NCBI RefSeq assembly: GCF_016767175.1
Contig: NZ_CP068564.1
Coordinates: forward strand, 1,674,001-1,738,000
DNA: 64,000 nucleotides
Direction: 5' to 3'
From: Keratinibaculum paraultunense
GTDB taxonomy: Bacteria; Bacillota; Clostridia; Tissierellales; Tepidimicrobiaceae
In this document: in pieces, positions 5,145 to 30,015 of the stretch
Layout: each line of letters opens with the position of its first letter
How positions within the stretch are numbered: position 1 is the stretch's first letter
The notes under the pieces: model-generated
What the model was told of the DNA's origin: nothing
What the model saw: only the letters and a program-made list of their open reading frames with translations
The model's database searches: none
Position numbers and translations under genes: made by a program

Positions 5145-5819
5145 TTAATCTAAATTTCCACCTATAAACACCATGGTTAACATGGTGAATATAAAACTTT
5201 GTAATACACCTGAAAATATATCAAAATAAGCATGAGGTAGTGGTGCAACTAATGGTGCAAAAAATCCTACTGCATTATAAATTAATGTCATAAGTAGTGT
5301 TCCAGCCATTACATTTCCAAACAAACGGAAAGATAGAGATACAGGATTAGCTATTTCACCTATAACATTAAGTGGTGTTAAAAGAGCTATAGGTTCAGTA
5401 AATCCTTTTAAATACCCTACAAAACCATTGTTCTTAAGCCCAAAGAATTGGGTTAATGTAAATGTTATTAAAGCCAATGTAAGGGTTACACTATAATCTG
5501 ATGTTGGTGGTGTAAAACCTATTAAACCAATTAAATTAGCAAATAACAAAAATGTCATGAGGGTAAATATATAGGGTCCAAAACTTTTTATATGCTTCTT
5601 ACCCATAGTATCTTTAACTAAATTGTTTATAATCTCTACATACATCTCAATCACATTTAAGAAATTTGAAGGCTTTTCATCTACCTTTAATTTTTTCACT
5701 TTACTATTTACAATTAAAGCAAATATAAATAATACAATAACTATGAGCCATACATTTACAACAGTTTCTGGTATGACAAATGTTTTCCCAAACATATTTA
5801 CTACAAACTCAATTGTCAA
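5145..5819 (-). CDS. atpB: F1Fo ATP synthase subunit a
   Basis: Integral membrane stator subunit that forms the ion half-channels against the c ring; 224 residues with five or six predicted helices. The essential arginine lies in SLSFRLFGNVMAGTLL (about residues 160-175). It is the first of the structural Fo genes here, following the two small membrane genes upstream, and is separated from atpE by 29 bases. Confidence 0.96.
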   Translation of the reverse strand: MTIEFVVNMFGKTFVIPETVVNVWLIVIVLFIFALIVNSKVKKLKVDEKPSNFLNVIEMYVEIINNLVKDTMGKKHIKSFGPYIFTLMTFLLFANLIGLIGFTPPTSDYSVTLTLALITFTLTQFFGLKNNGFVGYLKGFTEPIALLTPLNVIGEIANPVSLSFRLFGNVMAGTLLMTLIYNAVGFFAPLVAPLPHAYFDIFSGVLQSFIFTMLTMVFIGGNLD

Positions 5820-5888
5820 ATTTTTCTCAACCTCCTTTCAAATTCCCATAATTAATATTATAACAAATTTCTTAAAAGTGATTAAGCA

Positions 5889-23996: not shown

Positions 23997-24045
23997 ATAA
24001 TAAGTATAAAAAACGGTGCCAGGCACCGTTTTTTATACTTATTAT
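23997..24045. repeat. Odd-centred palindrome, family A copy 1
   Basis: A perfect 49-base palindrome around a single central base (24021). Its core is CGGTGCC-A-GGCACCG flanked by six A/T and ATACTTATT arms. It lies 20 bases beyond the protease stop, where it can also act as a terminator in either direction. Near-identical copies are at 26991 and 29971. Confidence 0.95.
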
Positions 24046-24064: not shown

Positions 24065-25375
24065 TTATAAACCTGCAGCTGCTTTAACTGCTTCATAGGC
24101 ATTCACTATGCCATAACCATAATAGTAGCTATCACCTGCATATTGTGCAGTTCTTCTTATTATACTTCTTGCATTATTTACAGAAAGATATCTATTAGCT
24201 GACCTCATTAATCCTGCTACTCCTGCTACGTGAGGGCTTGCCATTGAAGTACCAGACATATATTGATATCTATTGCCAGGAACTGTACTATATACATTCA
24301 CTCCTGGTGCCATGACATCTAGGCCTGTCCCATAATTAGAAAAACTTGCTCTTCTACCATATGAATCTACAGCTCCTACTGCTATTACACCATCATATGC
24401 TGCAGGATAACTAATTCTAGATGCAGATTCATTACCGCTAGCTGCTACTATGATAACACCTTTTGACATTGCTGTTTGACATGCATTATCAAATGCTTGT
24501 ACATATCCTCCGCCACCTAATGACATATTAATTACATCAGCTCCTACATTAGCTGCATGTAATATACCTTCAATTATCCCATAAACTGATCCACTACCAT
24601 TATCGCCTAATACTTTTACTGGTATTAAAGTACCTTGTTTCATAACTCCTGATACTATACCATAACTAGCTATTGTTCCTGCTACGTGAGTACCATGACC
24701 AGCTCTATCCATAAAATCTGAACTATTAGAAGTTGTAAAGTTTTTCCCTAACCTTGTGTCAACATAGTTTCTTAAACTTTGGTGATTATAGTCAATTCCA
24801 GTATCTACTACAGCTATTTTTACACTCATACTACCTGGAGTAATAGTCCAAGCTTGTGGTACTTTAATCATTTCATACTGCCATCTTTGATTATTGTGAA
24901 TATCATAAATTTGAAGTTCCTCATCTTCTACTACTTCTTCTATTGCATGTACTACATAGTTTGGCTCAATCTGAGCTACTTCTAAACCATTATCTTCTAT
25001 TATTTCTTTTAAAGCTTCTATTGCTTCTTCTTGTGTTTCGTACTTATTCATTGGATATTCTACTAAATAAACATAACCCATTTCTTCAATTACAGTTTCT
25101 TTAAAATCATCGACACTTCTAAGTTGTAAACCTTCACTATCATCAAAATTTTCTAAAAGTGATTTTTTTACGATAAAATCTTCTTCATTAATAGCAGAAA
25201 TATGTTGATCTACAATGTCTTCTGCACTTTGAACCGTACAAATATCCCCCCGGATTGAAACAATTAATTCTCCTGGAACACATTCCATATCTTCTGTTTC
25301 TCCTTTTGCCATAACAGGAACGCCCATCAATACTACTAATACTAAAACCATCGTTAAACTTAATATTCTTTTCAT
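24065..25375 (-). CDS. Secreted subtilisin-like serine protease (S8)
   Basis: Extracellular protease of 436 residues. A signal peptide (about 1-23, cut after VMA) and a propeptide (about 30-160, starting with an I9-like VPGELIVSI) precede the catalytic domain. The triad is D191 (VVDTGID), H227 (GHGTHVAG) and S377 (GTSMASPH), with oxyanion N315. There is no C-terminal anchor. It is transcribed divergently from an HTH/TPR-like regulator 240 bases away, suggesting regulation by that protein. A palindromic hairpin follows the stop. Confidence 0.95.
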   Translation of the reverse strand: MKRILSLTMVLVLVVLMGVPVMAKGETEDMECVPGELIVSIRGDICTVQSAEDIVDQHISAINEEDFIVKKSLLENFDDSEGLQLRSVDDFKETVIEEMGYVYLVEYPMNKYETQEEAIEALKEIIEDNGLEVAQIEPNYVVHAIEEVVEDEELQIYDIHNNQRWQYEMIKVPQAWTITPGSMSVKIAVVDTGIDYNHQSLRNYVDTRLGKNFTTSNSSDFMDRAGHGTHVAGTIASYGIVSGVMKQGTLIPVKVLGDNGSGSVYGIIEGILHAANVGADVINMSLGGGGYVQAFDNACQTAMSKGVIIVAASGNESASRISYPAAYDGVIAVGAVDSYGRRASFSNYGTGLDVMAPGVNVYSTVPGNRYQYMSGTSMASPHVAGVAGLMRSANRYLSVNNARSIIRRTAQYAGDSYYYGYGIVNAYEAVKAAAGL

Positions 25376-25546
25376 TACTCCCTTTTCCCCCTTTTTTTAT
25401 TTTTTTATTCTCTGATAATATGCTAACAGTACTTCCCAAATTCACCTCCTTTCTTATTATGTATGTTTTTTAAAATATTCAATTAATATTTTATTTTTTG
25501 CTATTTTACTCATTTTACAATATATTTATATATATTTTACAAATAC

Positions 25547-25575
25547 TTTACATACTACTCGTCCAGTTATATAAT
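25547..25575 (+). promoter_or_regulatory. Sigma-A type promoter for the HTH regulator
   Basis: TTTACA and TATAAT are separated by exactly 17 bases, 78 bases ahead of the TTG start chosen for the regulator. The rest of the 25376-25652 gap is AT-rich and must also hold the divergent protease promoter, which was not pinned down. Confidence 0.65.
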
Positions 25576-25652
25576 AAAATTATAGTAAGATCGTTTTAAT
25601 CTAGTGACTTAAATTGAGTATGACAAATATTATTATTAAGGAGTTGAGATCT

Positions 25653-26576
25653 TTGTACTATGATCTTAAAAGCTTTGGAGCAGAAGTACGTAACATCAGA
25701 AATAATTTAGAACTTACTCAAAGTACTGTTAGTGAACTTTCTGATATTCATGTAGATACCATAAGAAAAATTGAAAATGGTAAAGTACTTCCTACACAGG
25801 AAACTTTAGATTTACTATCCCCTGTATTGAAAAAAGATTTAAATGCACTTCTTCTTGAACATAGATTGCATGATTATCATGCTTTTGAAGAAGTAAAAAA
25901 TAGATTAGAATCTAAGCTTGATAAAGGTGAATTTGAAACCTTATCTATAGAATTAGAGGACTTAAAGGCTCTGCTTGATAATACTCTGCACCCTTATTTT
26001 ATAAATTCAATATATCAACTAATATTAATGACAGAAGCTATAATATTTAGGCATAAGCATGAGGATCCTCTTACAGCTTTAAATAAACTAGTAGATGCTA
26101 TGAAAGTGACTACTCCTGATTTTACATTGGACAACTATTCAGATTTTGTATATAATTCCATGGAGTTAAGAATTTTAATGAATATGGCCTTAATGATAAA
26201 TGAATTACAATCTACAGATAAAAGTTTAGAAATTATGAAATACTGCATAGAATCAGCAAAATCAGCAGAGCCCAATGATAATATTTTCCCCAAAATATGC
26301 TACAATTTATCTTATACTTATCATAGATTAGGTAGAGATAAAGAAGCTTTAAAATATTCTAATTTAGGTATAGACTATTGCCTTAAAAATAGAAATTATA
26401 GTGGATTAAATCTTTTGTATTTTAGAAGAGGTATTGCTGAATATTTTCTTAAGCATGATAATTATAAAGATTCTTTAAAAAAAGCTGTATATTTTGCTGA
26501 AATGTTAGGGCATTATGAGTTAAGAGACTTATTTATATCTAATTGCAAAAAGTACTATAACATAGATATATTATGA
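25653..26576 (+). CDS. HTH_3 transcriptional regulator with TPR-like C-terminus (RNPP/Rgg-like)
   Basis: DNA-binding regulator of about 307 residues. A Xre-type helix-turn-helix (ELTQSTVSELSDIHVDTIRK and ENGKVLPTQETL) occupies roughly residues 10-60, followed by all-helical repeats with TPR-like spacing (for example CYNLSYTYHRLGRDKEALKY). This layout is that of peptide-sensing PlcR/Rgg/PrgX regulators. The start is TTG 25653 because AAGGAG sits nine bases upstream; TTG 25614 or ATG 25620 would add 11-13 residues. It is divergent from the protease and convergent with a tiny secreted-peptide gene. Confidence 0.8.
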   Translation: MYYDLKSFGAEVRNIRNNLELTQSTVSELSDIHVDTIRKIENGKVLPTQETLDLLSPVLKKDLNALLLEHRLHDYHAFEEVKNRLESKLDKGEFETLSIELEDLKALLDNTLHPYFINSIYQLILMTEAIIFRHKHEDPLTALNKLVDAMKVTTPDFTLDNYSDFVYNSMELRILMNMALMINELQSTDKSLEIMKYCIESAKSAEPNDNIFPKICYNLSYTYHRLGRDKEALKYSNLGIDYCLKNRNYSGLNLLYFRRGIAEYFLKHDNYKDSLKKAVYFAEMLGHYELRDLFISNCKKYYNIDIL

Positions 26577-26578
26577 TA

Positions 26579-26749
26579 TTATATTATATATTTCCCATCA
26601 TAGCTATACCACTCAATTGTATCATCATCATCTCTTACAGCACCTTTACCAACTGCTAGTTTATCATCTTGTACAATACCTTCTTGTATACTGTATCCTC
26701 CAAATAGTACTGCAGTAACAATTGCCATTACCAATAAAAATCTTTTCAT
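26579..26749 (-). CDS. Small secreted peptide, candidate signal pro-peptide
   Basis: A 56-residue product beginning MKRFLLVMAIVTAVLFGG (signal-peptide-like) followed by an acidic stretch DDDD and the aromatic tail IEWYSYDGKYII. ATG 26749 follows GAGGGG; a -10 box TATAAT lies about 38 bases upstream of it. Its stop codon is two bases from the stop of the convergent HTH/TPR-like regulator. That pairing is typical of pro-peptides sensed by RNPP regulators, but no similarity to a known peptide is claimed. Confidence 0.6.
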   Translation of the reverse strand: MKRFLLVMAIVTAVLFGGYSIQEGIVQDDKLAVGKGAVRDDDDTIEWYSYDGKYII

Positions 26750-26818
26750 CTTTTCCCCTCCTCTCAATTTCTTATCTTTATCTATTAGTATTATACAACA
26801 TAAATAAACATAAATAAA

Positions 26819-26834
26819 CCAGATTCAAATCTGG
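26819..26834. promoter_or_regulatory. Palindrome upstream of the small peptide gene
   Basis: CCAGATT-CA-AATCTGG has perfect 7-base arms and lies about 70 bases ahead of the peptide start. With no T-run on either side it looks more like an operator than a terminator. No second copy was seen near the protease promoter. Confidence 0.4.
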
Positions 26835-26990: not shown

Positions 26991-27027
26991 TAAAAAACGG
27001 TGCCAAACACCGTTTTTTATACTTATT
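26991..27027. repeat. Palindrome family A copy 2 (degenerate)
   Basis: AAAAAACGGTG-CCAAA-CACCGTTTTTT keeps 11-base arms but has a changed centre, and the outer left arm has decayed while the right arm still reads TATACTTATT. It lies between the ABC ATPase stop and the terminator above. Confidence 0.85.
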
Positions 27028-27128: not shown

Positions 27129-27752
27129 TTATATTTTTCCCATATTTATTACACTATTGCAAATCATTGATAGCCTTTCATCATGTGTGGCTAATATAAC
27201 AATAGCTCCTTCATTTACACAACTCTTTAATAAATCTATTATAATTTCTCTATTTTTTGCATCTAATGAAGCAGTTGGTTCATCTGCAAAAATAAATTTT
27301 GCCTTTTTATACAATGCTCTTGCAATTCCAAGCCTCTGTTTTTCTCCACCAGACAGTACAGACGCTTGTGTATCTATTTTATTTATTAATCCAACTTGTT
27401 TTAATATTTCACTTATTTCTTTATCATTCTTTTGCTTATTTGAAAATGTAATGTTATACCTAACATTTTCATCTTCAATGATTCCATAATCTTGATAAAT
27501 AAATGCTGCTTGCTTTTGCCAAAAATCTATTCTTTCTTTTTCGGTTAAATTCGAACAATCTTTCCCATTAATTAATATTGCTCCATTCGAAATTTTCTGT
27601 ATTAAACCCAGACAATTTAATAAAGAAGTTTTTCCACATCCTGATGGTCCTGTTATTGCTACCATTTGTGGACCTTCTATTGTAAAACTTATATTTTCAA
27701 ATATAACGTGACCTTTTATATTTAAAGATATTTCTTTAGCCTCTATTTTCAC
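27129..27752 (-). CDS. ABC transporter ATPase, bacteriocin-export type
   Basis: Nucleotide-binding subunit of 207 residues. Walker A is GPSGCGKT, the signature is LSGGEKQR, Walker B is FIFADEPTA, and a Q-loop (FIYQDYG) and H-loop (ATHDE) are present. The GTG start at 27752, nine bases after GGAGGT, removes the overlap with the permease gene. The size and the partner resemble the lactococcin-972-group export ATPases (a family assignment from memory of TIGR03608). It drives the 667-residue membrane partner. Confidence 0.85.
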   Translation of the reverse strand: MKIEAKEISLNIKGHVIFENISFTIEGPQMVAITGPSGCGKTSLLNCLGLIQKISNGAILINGKDCSNLTEKERIDFWQKQAAFIYQDYGIIEDENVRYNITFSNKQKNDKEISEILKQVGLINKIDTQASVLSGGEKQRLGIARALYKKAKFIFADEPTASLDAKNREIIIDLLKSCVNEGAIVILATHDERLSMICNSVINMGKI

Positions 27753-27769
27753 TAATATTCTACCTCCAA

Positions 27770-29773
27770 TCACTCTCTATGTACACTCTTTTCAAAAACT
27801 ACTTTTGAATGCAATCTATATGCTAAGCGAACAAATATTGTATATAAAATTAAAGTACTTAACCCAACTAAAGATGTTGTACGTATATCAACTCTCCTAA
27901 TCTGATAGCATATGACTGAACCAAGAAAAATAGCTAAACCTGTATATAAAAAATCTTTTCTAAGATCAGGCTTTGCTATGTCCATATATGATACTCCATT
28001 TGTGAGCATAACATATATTTTCTTTTTATTTTCATTTGCCCATAACTGTGCTCCAAAAATTCCTGTAAATATTACTGTAACTAAAAGTGTCAAGCTTGCT
28101 ACTATATAATCCACTACTTGAGTTTTAAATTTTTGTGCCGTTTGTAAAGCCAAATCAGCTATACCATCAACAGAAATTACCAAAGGTTTTAATGGACTAT
28201 TTTGTAAGTGTTTATCTAGTATTGATCTATTTGAAAAAACAATATTTCCAGTAGATAAAGCAGGTATTACAAAGCCTTTAATATTTAATTCATCAGCAGG
28301 ATTTTCTATTAATATTACTAAAGGATTTTCAGCTTGTAAGGTTGCATCCATTTTACCTGGATTGGGAGCTAATGCAAGAAATTTATCTCCTTCAAAAGTA
28401 TAATATTTTAAGTTTTGTGTATTTAATTTTTCTTCATTTATCAACAATGGCATTTGCCTTTCCACAAAATCTTTCAGTTCAAAATCAATATCATCAAGTT
28501 TAATCTCTCTTAACACACCATTCTCTTCTTTTTTTCCTATGCCAACTCCCATATTATCAATCCATGATTTATCTGTTATAATCAAGTGATCAAAACCTGA
28601 TTTCTGTAGTTCGCTAGATATTTCTATACTTTGATCAATTGCCATTGACACACTTAGACTATTTTCATTTTGCATATTTCTTAAAAACTCCTGAACTTGT
28701 ATAATATTTTCGTCAGTAAATAATTCATCAAGATTTGAAAATGTTAATCTAAAGCTTTTACTCATCTTGTCCCAAAAGAAATGTTCATTTGCCATTTTGC
28801 TTGTAATAACTGCAGATGTAACCGTCATTGGTATTACTATTAAAGCAAACAATACAGTTAATATTTTCAAAGTTGTTCCCAATGTTTTAAATCTCTTTAA
28901 AGGTATTTCTCTATTTGCTATATGACTTGCTTTTGGCTCCACAATAACTGAAATCAACGCACTTATACCAATTATAAACATTAGTTCAAAAATTACATTT
29001 AACATAGTAGGTTTTATGATTAAATTTATTTGCTCAACACCTCTTGTAAATGCATAGTAAAATGTCATTATTATACTTCCAATTATACTACCAATCAAGG
29101 AATTTTGTAATACAAATTTAACATCATCTCTTATAATATCAATTCGTTTAACTCCTGCTAATAACTTAATTGATCTTTCCTTGGATTTCATCAAAAAGTA
29201 TGATAATAACACTACTAATAAAAAAACATTAGCAATCAAAAAAGAATTTCCTATTGGGTTACTCATAAAATTACCATAAATTTTCTTTATTGTATTTTGT
29301 TTTTCAAAAAATGTTGCTTTTATTTGATTCTTTTCTGCCCATTCCTTTAATGACTCCAACAAATCATGATTATTAGAAACATGGTATGTTCCGGAAAGTG
29401 TCATTTCCTCCATTTTGGTAGAGTGTATCAATCTTCCATTTACTCCTTTAGATAGCCATCTAATCTCATCTTGATTTATAATGATATTATTAGATACTGG
29501 TTTTTTATCTCCAAACCAAATAATATTTTGATTATTATTAGCATTTTCTTTATCAACAACAATTTTATATATTTCGCCACCACTATTTTTACTAATATTA
29601 TTTAATTCTTCAATAAGAGTACGTTTAGGAGTTTTTGTATCAGCAGTATTTAAATTCATAACAATTTCAGCTTTAAAAGGCTCTCCTCTTTGATTGAATT
29701 CTAGTGATTTAACTGTTAAAGCAAAAACCAATGCAGTAATAAAAACAACACTCATACTAAACACTTTTTTCAT
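27770..29773 (-). CDS. Bacteriocin-associated integral membrane (putative immunity/export) protein
   Basis: A 667-residue membrane protein with an N-terminal helix, a long extracytoplasmic part, two central helices near residues 175-250, another pair near 295-330, a second large extracytoplasmic domain and three or four C-terminal helices. This resembles the permease/immunity partners of lactococcin-972-like ABC exporters (TIGR01654 type). The start is ATG 29773 after AGGTG. It lies 17 bases ahead of its ATPase. No bacteriocin precursor is found in the 200 bases upstream or between the transporter and the next gene. Confidence 0.75.
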   Translation of the reverse strand: MKKVFSMSVVFITALVFALTVKSLEFNQRGEPFKAEIVMNLNTADTKTPKRTLIEELNNISKNSGGEIYKIVVDKENANNNQNIIWFGDKKPVSNNIIINQDEIRWLSKGVNGRLIHSTKMEEMTLSGTYHVSNNHDLLESLKEWAEKNQIKATFFEKQNTIKKIYGNFMSNPIGNSFLIANVFLLVVLLSYFLMKSKERSIKLLAGVKRIDIIRDDVKFVLQNSLIGSIIGSIIMTFYYAFTRGVEQINLIIKPTMLNVIFELMFIIGISALISVIVEPKASHIANREIPLKRFKTLGTTLKILTVLFALIVIPMTVTSAVITSKMANEHFFWDKMSKSFRLTFSNLDELFTDENIIQVQEFLRNMQNENSLSVSMAIDQSIEISSELQKSGFDHLIITDKSWIDNMGVGIGKKEENGVLREIKLDDIDFELKDFVERQMPLLINEEKLNTQNLKYYTFEGDKFLALAPNPGKMDATLQAENPLVILIENPADELNIKGFVIPALSTGNIVFSNRSILDKHLQNSPLKPLVISVDGIADLALQTAQKFKTQVVDYIVASLTLLVTVIFTGIFGAQLWANENKKKIYVMLTNGVSYMDIAKPDLRKDFLYTGLAIFLGSVICYQIRRVDIRTTSLVGLSTLILYTIFVRLAYRLHSKVVFEKSVHRE

Positions 29774-29970: not shown

Positions 29971-30015
29971 AATAAGTATAAAAAACGGTGCCTGGCACCG
30001 TTTTTTATACTTATT
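29971..30015. repeat. Odd-centred palindrome, family A copy 3
   Basis: A perfect 45-base palindrome around base 29993 with core CGGTGCC-T-GGCACCG and the same A6/T6 and ATACTTATT arms as copy 1. The stop codon of the TetR gene (30011-30013) lies inside its right arm, so the element either supplied or captured that stop. Confidence 0.95.

Follow-up and report, generated by a model that had tools for sequence, protein, structure and literature searches.

The question raised by this locus is whether two convergent genes in the DNA analysed here (the window, 64,000 nucleotides of the Keratinibaculum paraultunense genome), one encoding a regulator and the other a protein of only 56 residues, constitute a peptide-signalling pair of the RNPP type, in which the regulator is the receptor and the small protein the secreted pro-peptide. 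Such a pair had been proposed in an earlier note, which also pointed to a secreted subtilisin encoded divergently from the regulator as a possible target. The subtilisin is located as that note had described; its coordinates and those of the other features are collected in Table 1.

Table 1. Features of the regulator–peptide locus and of related loci (positions are those of the window unless a locus or contig is named).
Feature	Positions	Strand	Basis or remark
Secreted S8 subtilisin, 436 aa, divergent from the regulator	24065–25375	−	Pfam Peptidase_S8, 4.7e-58
Regulator promoter, TTTACA-17-TATAAT	25547–25575	+	Sequence; architecture shared by divergent relatives
Regulator promoter hexamers	TTTACA 25547–25552; 17 nt; TATAAT 25570–25575	+	Sequence
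RNPP-type receptor/regulator, HTH_3 + RNPP_C/TPR	25653–26576	+	Pfam; relatedness to PlcR; AlphaFold2 model
Secreted pro-peptide, 56 aa, candidate pheromone precursor; core around DDTIEWYSY	26579–26749	−	Sequence; relatives; profile matches
Stretches of the pro-peptide, DDDDTIEWYSY and TIEWYSYDGKYII	Within residues 36–56		
Pro-peptide Shine-Dalgarno sequence, AGGAGG	26757–26762	−	Sequence; strong site; spacing 7 nt
Pro-peptide -10, TATAAT	26790–26795	−	Exactly 23 nt from the box
Pro-peptide weak -35, TTTATT	26813–26818	−	Abuts the box; TTGAAA in many relatives
Operator palindrome (the box), 16 bp, CCAGATTTGAATCTGG, candidate binding site of the regulator	26819–26834	.	Conserved spacing; composite promoter matches
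ABC ATPase resembling a bacteriocin-export family	27129–27755	−	TIGR03608, 200 bits, below the cut-off of 254.85; no box
Multi-spanning permease partner, DUF6619 region	27770–29773	−	Next to the ABC ATPase
Secreted subtilisin, 918 aa	L122 1173–3929 (C1:2168172–2170928 of the same genome)		Boxed promoter
Tandem-repeat precursors of the candidate pheromone	L079 1–281; L082 about 5670–5888		Repeated core

A regulator with the predicted fold of PlcR

The probable start codon of the regulator is TTG at 25653, preceded by a Shine-Dalgarno sequence, AAGGAG (25638–25643), at a spacing of 9 nt, so that the product has 307 aa rather than 320. Its stop codon, TGA, occupies 26574–26576 and the opposite gene ends at 26579, leaving the two-base gap between the convergent stops that the earlier note had reported. 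The HTH plus TPR-like architecture described in that note was also recovered, because both HTH_3 (PF01381; 37.4 bits, E 2.7e-9) and RNPP_C (PF18768; 35.8 bits, E 7.9e-9) pass the curated Pfam cut-offs of 23 and 26.5 bits, respectively, and the predicted structure has the PlcR fold. PlcR was the best full-length relative of solved structure in a single-sequence search (E 0.0012) and again with a 16-sequence profile (E 1.8e-9). AlphaFold2 gave a confident model (pLDDT 90.7), for which the PlcR–PapR7–DNA complex ranked first in Foldseek, ahead of Rgg2 and then ComR, while PrgX and Rap came further down; against that complex (3u3w) the VIA comparison gave Z 23.4 over 275 residues with an rmsd of 7.3.

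Two features of RNPP (RRNPP) systems were examined: an N-terminal HTH combined with a C-terminal TPR domain (RNPP_C), which is present according to Pfam, the model and the fold match, and an adjoining small secreted pro-peptide gene conserved with the receptor, which is likewise present, as set out below. By these features the regulator is a member of RNPP.

A probable secreted pro-peptide that accompanies the regulator

The small gene starts with ATG at 26747–26749 on the minus strand and gives the product MKRFLLVMAIVTAVLFGGYSIQEGIVQDDKLAVGKGAVRDDDDTIEWYSYDGKYII, whose N-terminus, K/R followed by hydrophobic residues, is Sec-like as assessed from composition, and whose C-terminus is EWYSYDGKYII. 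When this peptide alone (P0002) was used as a BLAST query, no significant match was obtained in 60 relatives, as might be the case if an orphan regulator merely adjoined an open reading frame that is in decay or due to chance. That explanation, to which we give next to no credence, is contradicted by profile matches, by co-location, by silent-only changes in a repeated relative and by conservation of the promoter (next section). Examination of the small frames adjoining regulator homologues brought to light short genes whose products begin in a Sec-like manner and share the tail motif, of the type [DE]D-x-I-[ED]-[W/L]-x-[S/N]-Y. A profile of seven such sequences gave nine matches with E<1e-5 in 61 whole genomes, all nine lying no more than 3 kb away from a regulator homologue. 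In the 249 genomes of the order, a profile of 15 sequences gave 14 matches with E≤1e-6, and 13 of these were within 3 kb of a regulator homologue, the remaining one being about 5 kb away. Loci outside the profile training (L137, L138 and G243:C94) were also positive, and relatives beside regulator homologues are spread over Tissierellales and Thermoanaerobacterales.

Two precursors contain the core in tandem: that of L079 has at least six exact units of GEDDLIRLH, and that of L082 has three copies of GEEDMIWLHS plus a partial one. The nucleotide sequences of the L079 units differ at eight columns, in every case silently, so selection acts on the encoded peptide. The tandem repeats pin the pheromone core and, judging from these sequence comparisons, the 56-aa gene is real. 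The earlier note had named lack of conservation of the small frame as an argument against the pair, and had proposed conservation of the pair in related genomes as a check; on both points the outcome favours the pair, as does the recurrence of the motif in small genes with signal-peptide-like starts. The conserved core (..DDTIEWYSY..) is set back from the very C-terminus of the window precursor, and because of this position a synthetic peptide made of the last five residues only may be the wrong choice for pheromone tests.

A candidate operator at a fixed distance from the -10 of the peptide gene

The exact 16-bp box sequence of the window occurs once in the whole genome, and no other site matches it with one mismatch or fewer. 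By the core of the palindrome the loci form two sets, one with GATTTRAATC and the other with a GACTTTRAWGTC-like sequence. A palindrome that passes a GC filter stands exactly 23 nt before the -10 in 12 of 17 peptide genes, and no spacing exceeded a count of three in 300 shuffles, a control that preserves base composition only and counts related loci as independent. Most of the other five genes have a degenerate or variant palindrome. Since 23 is the sum of 6 and 17, there is no gap between the box and the -35 hexamer, and this promoter geometry, with the box centre near -43, suggests a site of the class II activator type. From its proximity and conservation, the box is probably bound by the regulator. 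At divergent loci it lies between the regulator's -10 and start codon, where it would suit autorepression.

The last arrangement is pertinent to the question of whether the regulator acts instead as a repressor that the peptide releases, within the same circuit. TprA is generally described as a repressor released by its peptide, and TprA2, which is PlcR-like, acts with PhrA2 beside lantibiotic-type genes; together with the suitability of the divergent-locus box for self-repression, these precedents give repression a real though minor share of the probability. The single fixed spacing at which the box abuts the -35 of the peptide gene, as for a class II activator, and the poor -35 of the window's own promoter (TTTATT) argue for activation, which we prefer.

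Two further observations concern the distribution of boxes. Two distant RNPP-like regulators (L147, 5120; L146, 4240) have a palindrome with a different core 23 nt before a nearby -10; the 23-nt rule may predate this peptide family, or the two cases may be due to chance. In Thermoanaerobacter, two neighbourhoods (L087 and L100) have three to four box-promoters each, which suggests expanded arrays of regulator, peptide and secreted-protein units.

Predicted targets

A composite search for the box, 23 nt and the -10 with at most one mismatch found only three sites in the 2.3-Mb genome: before the window peptide, before a paralogous peptide and before the 918-aa secreted subtilisin. No such site was found in eight genomes of the same family that lack the regulator, and one genome that has the regulator (G017) gave a single match in which a proper -10 is missing. 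In the sister genome (G001), the search found the box-promoter of the peptide only and no boxed subtilisin. The genome of the window encodes three S8 proteases in all, and the 918-aa enzyme, which has an odd domain mix including a rhodanese domain and repeated MG2/Ig-like domains, is 75% identical to the window subtilisin over 442 aligned columns. No recognisable box was found upstream of the latter; a degenerate GATCGTTTTAATCTAG there was considered and rejected, as the -10 at the right distance is absent. The suggestion that a protease is a target is supported for the boxed 918-aa paralogue and is less certain for the neighbouring subtilisin to which it had been applied, which has no recognisable operator. 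An additional AGGAGGTGA is present in each of the two subtilisin genes far upstream of the start codon (about 25440–25460 on the minus strand in the window; 3985–4005 in L122), reminiscent of a stabilising Shine-Dalgarno sequence (STAB-SD) within a leader.

In relatives, boxes precede genes of several other kinds. At L062 a box stands before a radical-SAM/S41/ABC operon whose last gene is the peptide, and at L064 and L078 boxes precede radical-SAM genes; these three loci are candidate quorum-regulated RiPP clusters. The radical-SAM genes under the box in these Tissierellales loci (L062 9525–14701, L064 and L078) are of the SPASM type. In Clostridium ultunense (L063) a box precedes the gene for an SBP_bac_5 oligopeptide-binding protein, a hint that the peptide may be re-imported by an oligopeptide permease. 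Boxes also precede secreted-protein genes (L080 and L089), and at L068 and L086 a subtilisin gene follows the peptide within 300 nt on the same strand. A LanC-like gene adjoins the pair in one relative (L088) and radical-SAM genes in others; no lantibiotic or radical-SAM gene was recognised within the window.

Such neighbours make it necessary to ask whether the small gene encodes not a ligand but a bacteriocin- or RiPP-like cargo of the adjoining bacteriocin-type ABC transporter, with the regulator controlling that cargo. The TIGR03608-like ABC ATPase and permease, which are possibly associated with the pair, lie upstream on the same strand as the small gene, and RiPP machinery adjoins some relatives. 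Nevertheless, we consider a cargo improbable: the peptide tracks the regulator and box through unrelated neighbourhoods (LanC-like, radical SAM, subtilisin, ABC or none), its Sec-like start and short, sometimes repeated core are typical of RNPP pheromones (PMC9765709), and the box of the window sits between the peptide and the ABC genes. A signalling peptide accordingly remains the preferred identity of the small product.

Layout of the pair and regulators lacking the peptide

The convergent pairing stressed in the earlier note holds in the window, but it is not the usual layout: in most relatives the peptide gene is divergent from the regulator, and convergence is limited to the window and L061, L062 and L063, which form one supported clade (97/94). 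The genome of the window itself has a paralogous pair (L002/L060), in which the regulator is 45% identical and has its own divergent gene for a 50-aa peptide. The pheromone gene would have moved once, from divergent to convergent, taking its box-promoter along, a proposal that we somewhat favour jointly with the whole new-family reading given below. The hairpin between the convergent stops was no better than those of shuffles, and for this reason we do not claim a shared terminator.

Wide occurrence of the regulator without the small gene had been named in advance as evidence against the pair. Among 20 close regulator homologues (E≤1e-100 or just above, in the 249 genomes of the order), 12 have the peptide and eight do not, so that the regulator is in part found without it. 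Three of the eight (G005, G015 and G017) form one clade, with radical-SAM genes adjoining the regulator in the latter two; one (G045:C16) is cut by a contig edge; three (G055, G234 and G244) show decayed genes, relics or transposase fragments; and at one (G221:815732) the box is present and no peptide gene was found. No member of this peptide family was found with more distant regulator homologues.

Comparison with known systems

One close counterpart is PlcR–PapR of the Bacillus cereus group, which likewise combines an HTH plus TPR receptor, comparable in length and fold, with a small secreted precursor and a palindromic operator, and whose regulon includes its own peptide along with secreted proteases (PMC2464732), as in the circuit proposed here. 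The present operator, CCxGATTTRAATCxGG or GACTTTRAWGTC-like, differs from the PlcR box, TATGnAnnnnTnCATA; the core is acidic-aromatic, DDxIEWxSY, in contrast to the ADLPFEF stated for PapR (PMC6568020); and the precursor gene is divergent or convergent, whereas papR lies downstream on the same strand. The PlcR box had 11 matches with one mismatch or fewer in the window, against 7.9 expected, and the sole exact one is inside the regulator gene. The marks of the PlcR subfamily that were tested are absent, namely a PlcR box upstream of the peptide gene, the PapR gene layout and a PapR-type C-terminal heptapeptide. Repeated propeptides are known in PlcR-type systems (PMC9765709).

TprA–PhrA and TprA2–PhrA2 of Streptococcus pneumoniae have, as here, a PlcR-like regulator and a peptide on the opposite strand, and they are linked to lantibiotic-type genes (PMC5436883); the bacterial order is different, as is the peptide, compared with the C-terminal heptapeptide VDLGLAD of PhrA2. 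In the Rgg–SHP systems of streptococci, an RNPP receptor likewise controls radical-SAM peptide operons (PMC8092268; PMC13361665), but SHPs are shorter and exported by PptAB (PMC9765709), whereas the present precursor has a Sec-like start and its receptor is nearer to PlcR. RNPP systems are already known in Clostridia, according to a report on Qsr of solventogenic Clostridium (PMC10075063); QssR is placed with the nine-TPR receptors, clan B, in an account that links five-TPR RNPP receptors mostly to biosynthetic gene clusters (PMC12700828), and the present regulator has the shorter length of PlcR.

The proposed circuit and its probable novelty

The pairing of an RNPP regulator with a secreted pro-peptide passes the tests of conservation, co-occurrence, operator and fold, and it is highly likely that the locus encodes an RNPP quorum-sensing circuit of the PlcR/TprA type. 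The 56-aa precursor would leave the cell through Sec and be processed extracellularly to a short peptide with the core DD-x-I-E-W-x-S-Y, which would re-enter the cell and bind the regulator at its TPR domain. The peptide-loaded regulator would then bind the 16-bp palindrome abutting the -35 and activate the promoter of the peptide gene, in a positive feedback loop, as well as that of the secreted subtilisin elsewhere in the genome.

The best reading is a new PlcR/TprA-like RNPP subfamily with positive autoregulation, very probably undescribed. In its fullest form, to which we incline with moderate confidence, the pair represents an undescribed pheromone–receptor–operator family across Tissierellales and Thermoanaerobacterales, with a class II activator acting on a box fused to the -35, a portable device that switches RiPP operons, the genes of exported proteases and peptide uptake, and with the one change of layout described above. 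In the literature searched, no description was found of the pair in Tissierella or Thermoanaerobacter, of RNPP signalling in Thermoanaerobacter, or of comparable peptide signalling in these genera, in Caldanaerobacter or in Clostridium ultunense; the main text of RRNPP_detector mentions one Tissierellaceae candidate, and some loci may already be in automatic survey listings.

The result is a full testable circuit, comprising receptor, pheromone core, operator and predicted targets, for anaerobes such as Tissierella, Thermoanaerobacter, Caldanaerobacter and Clostridium ultunense. The rule of a box and 23 nt permits regulon prediction by sequence alone, and synthetic core peptides might induce secreted proteases and otherwise silent RiPP clusters in such bacteria.

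A separate observation concerns a palindromic repeat, AAAAACGGTGCC[A/T]GGCACCGTTTTT within ATAAGTATA..., which has three copies in the window, against 0.01 expected by chance: past the end of the subtilisin gene (24013–24029), upstream of the peptide gene (26997–27013) and upstream of the permease gene (29985–30001). The sister genome (L061) also has this repeat in front of its peptide gene; it resembles a small dispersed repeat and could serve as a bidirectional terminator.
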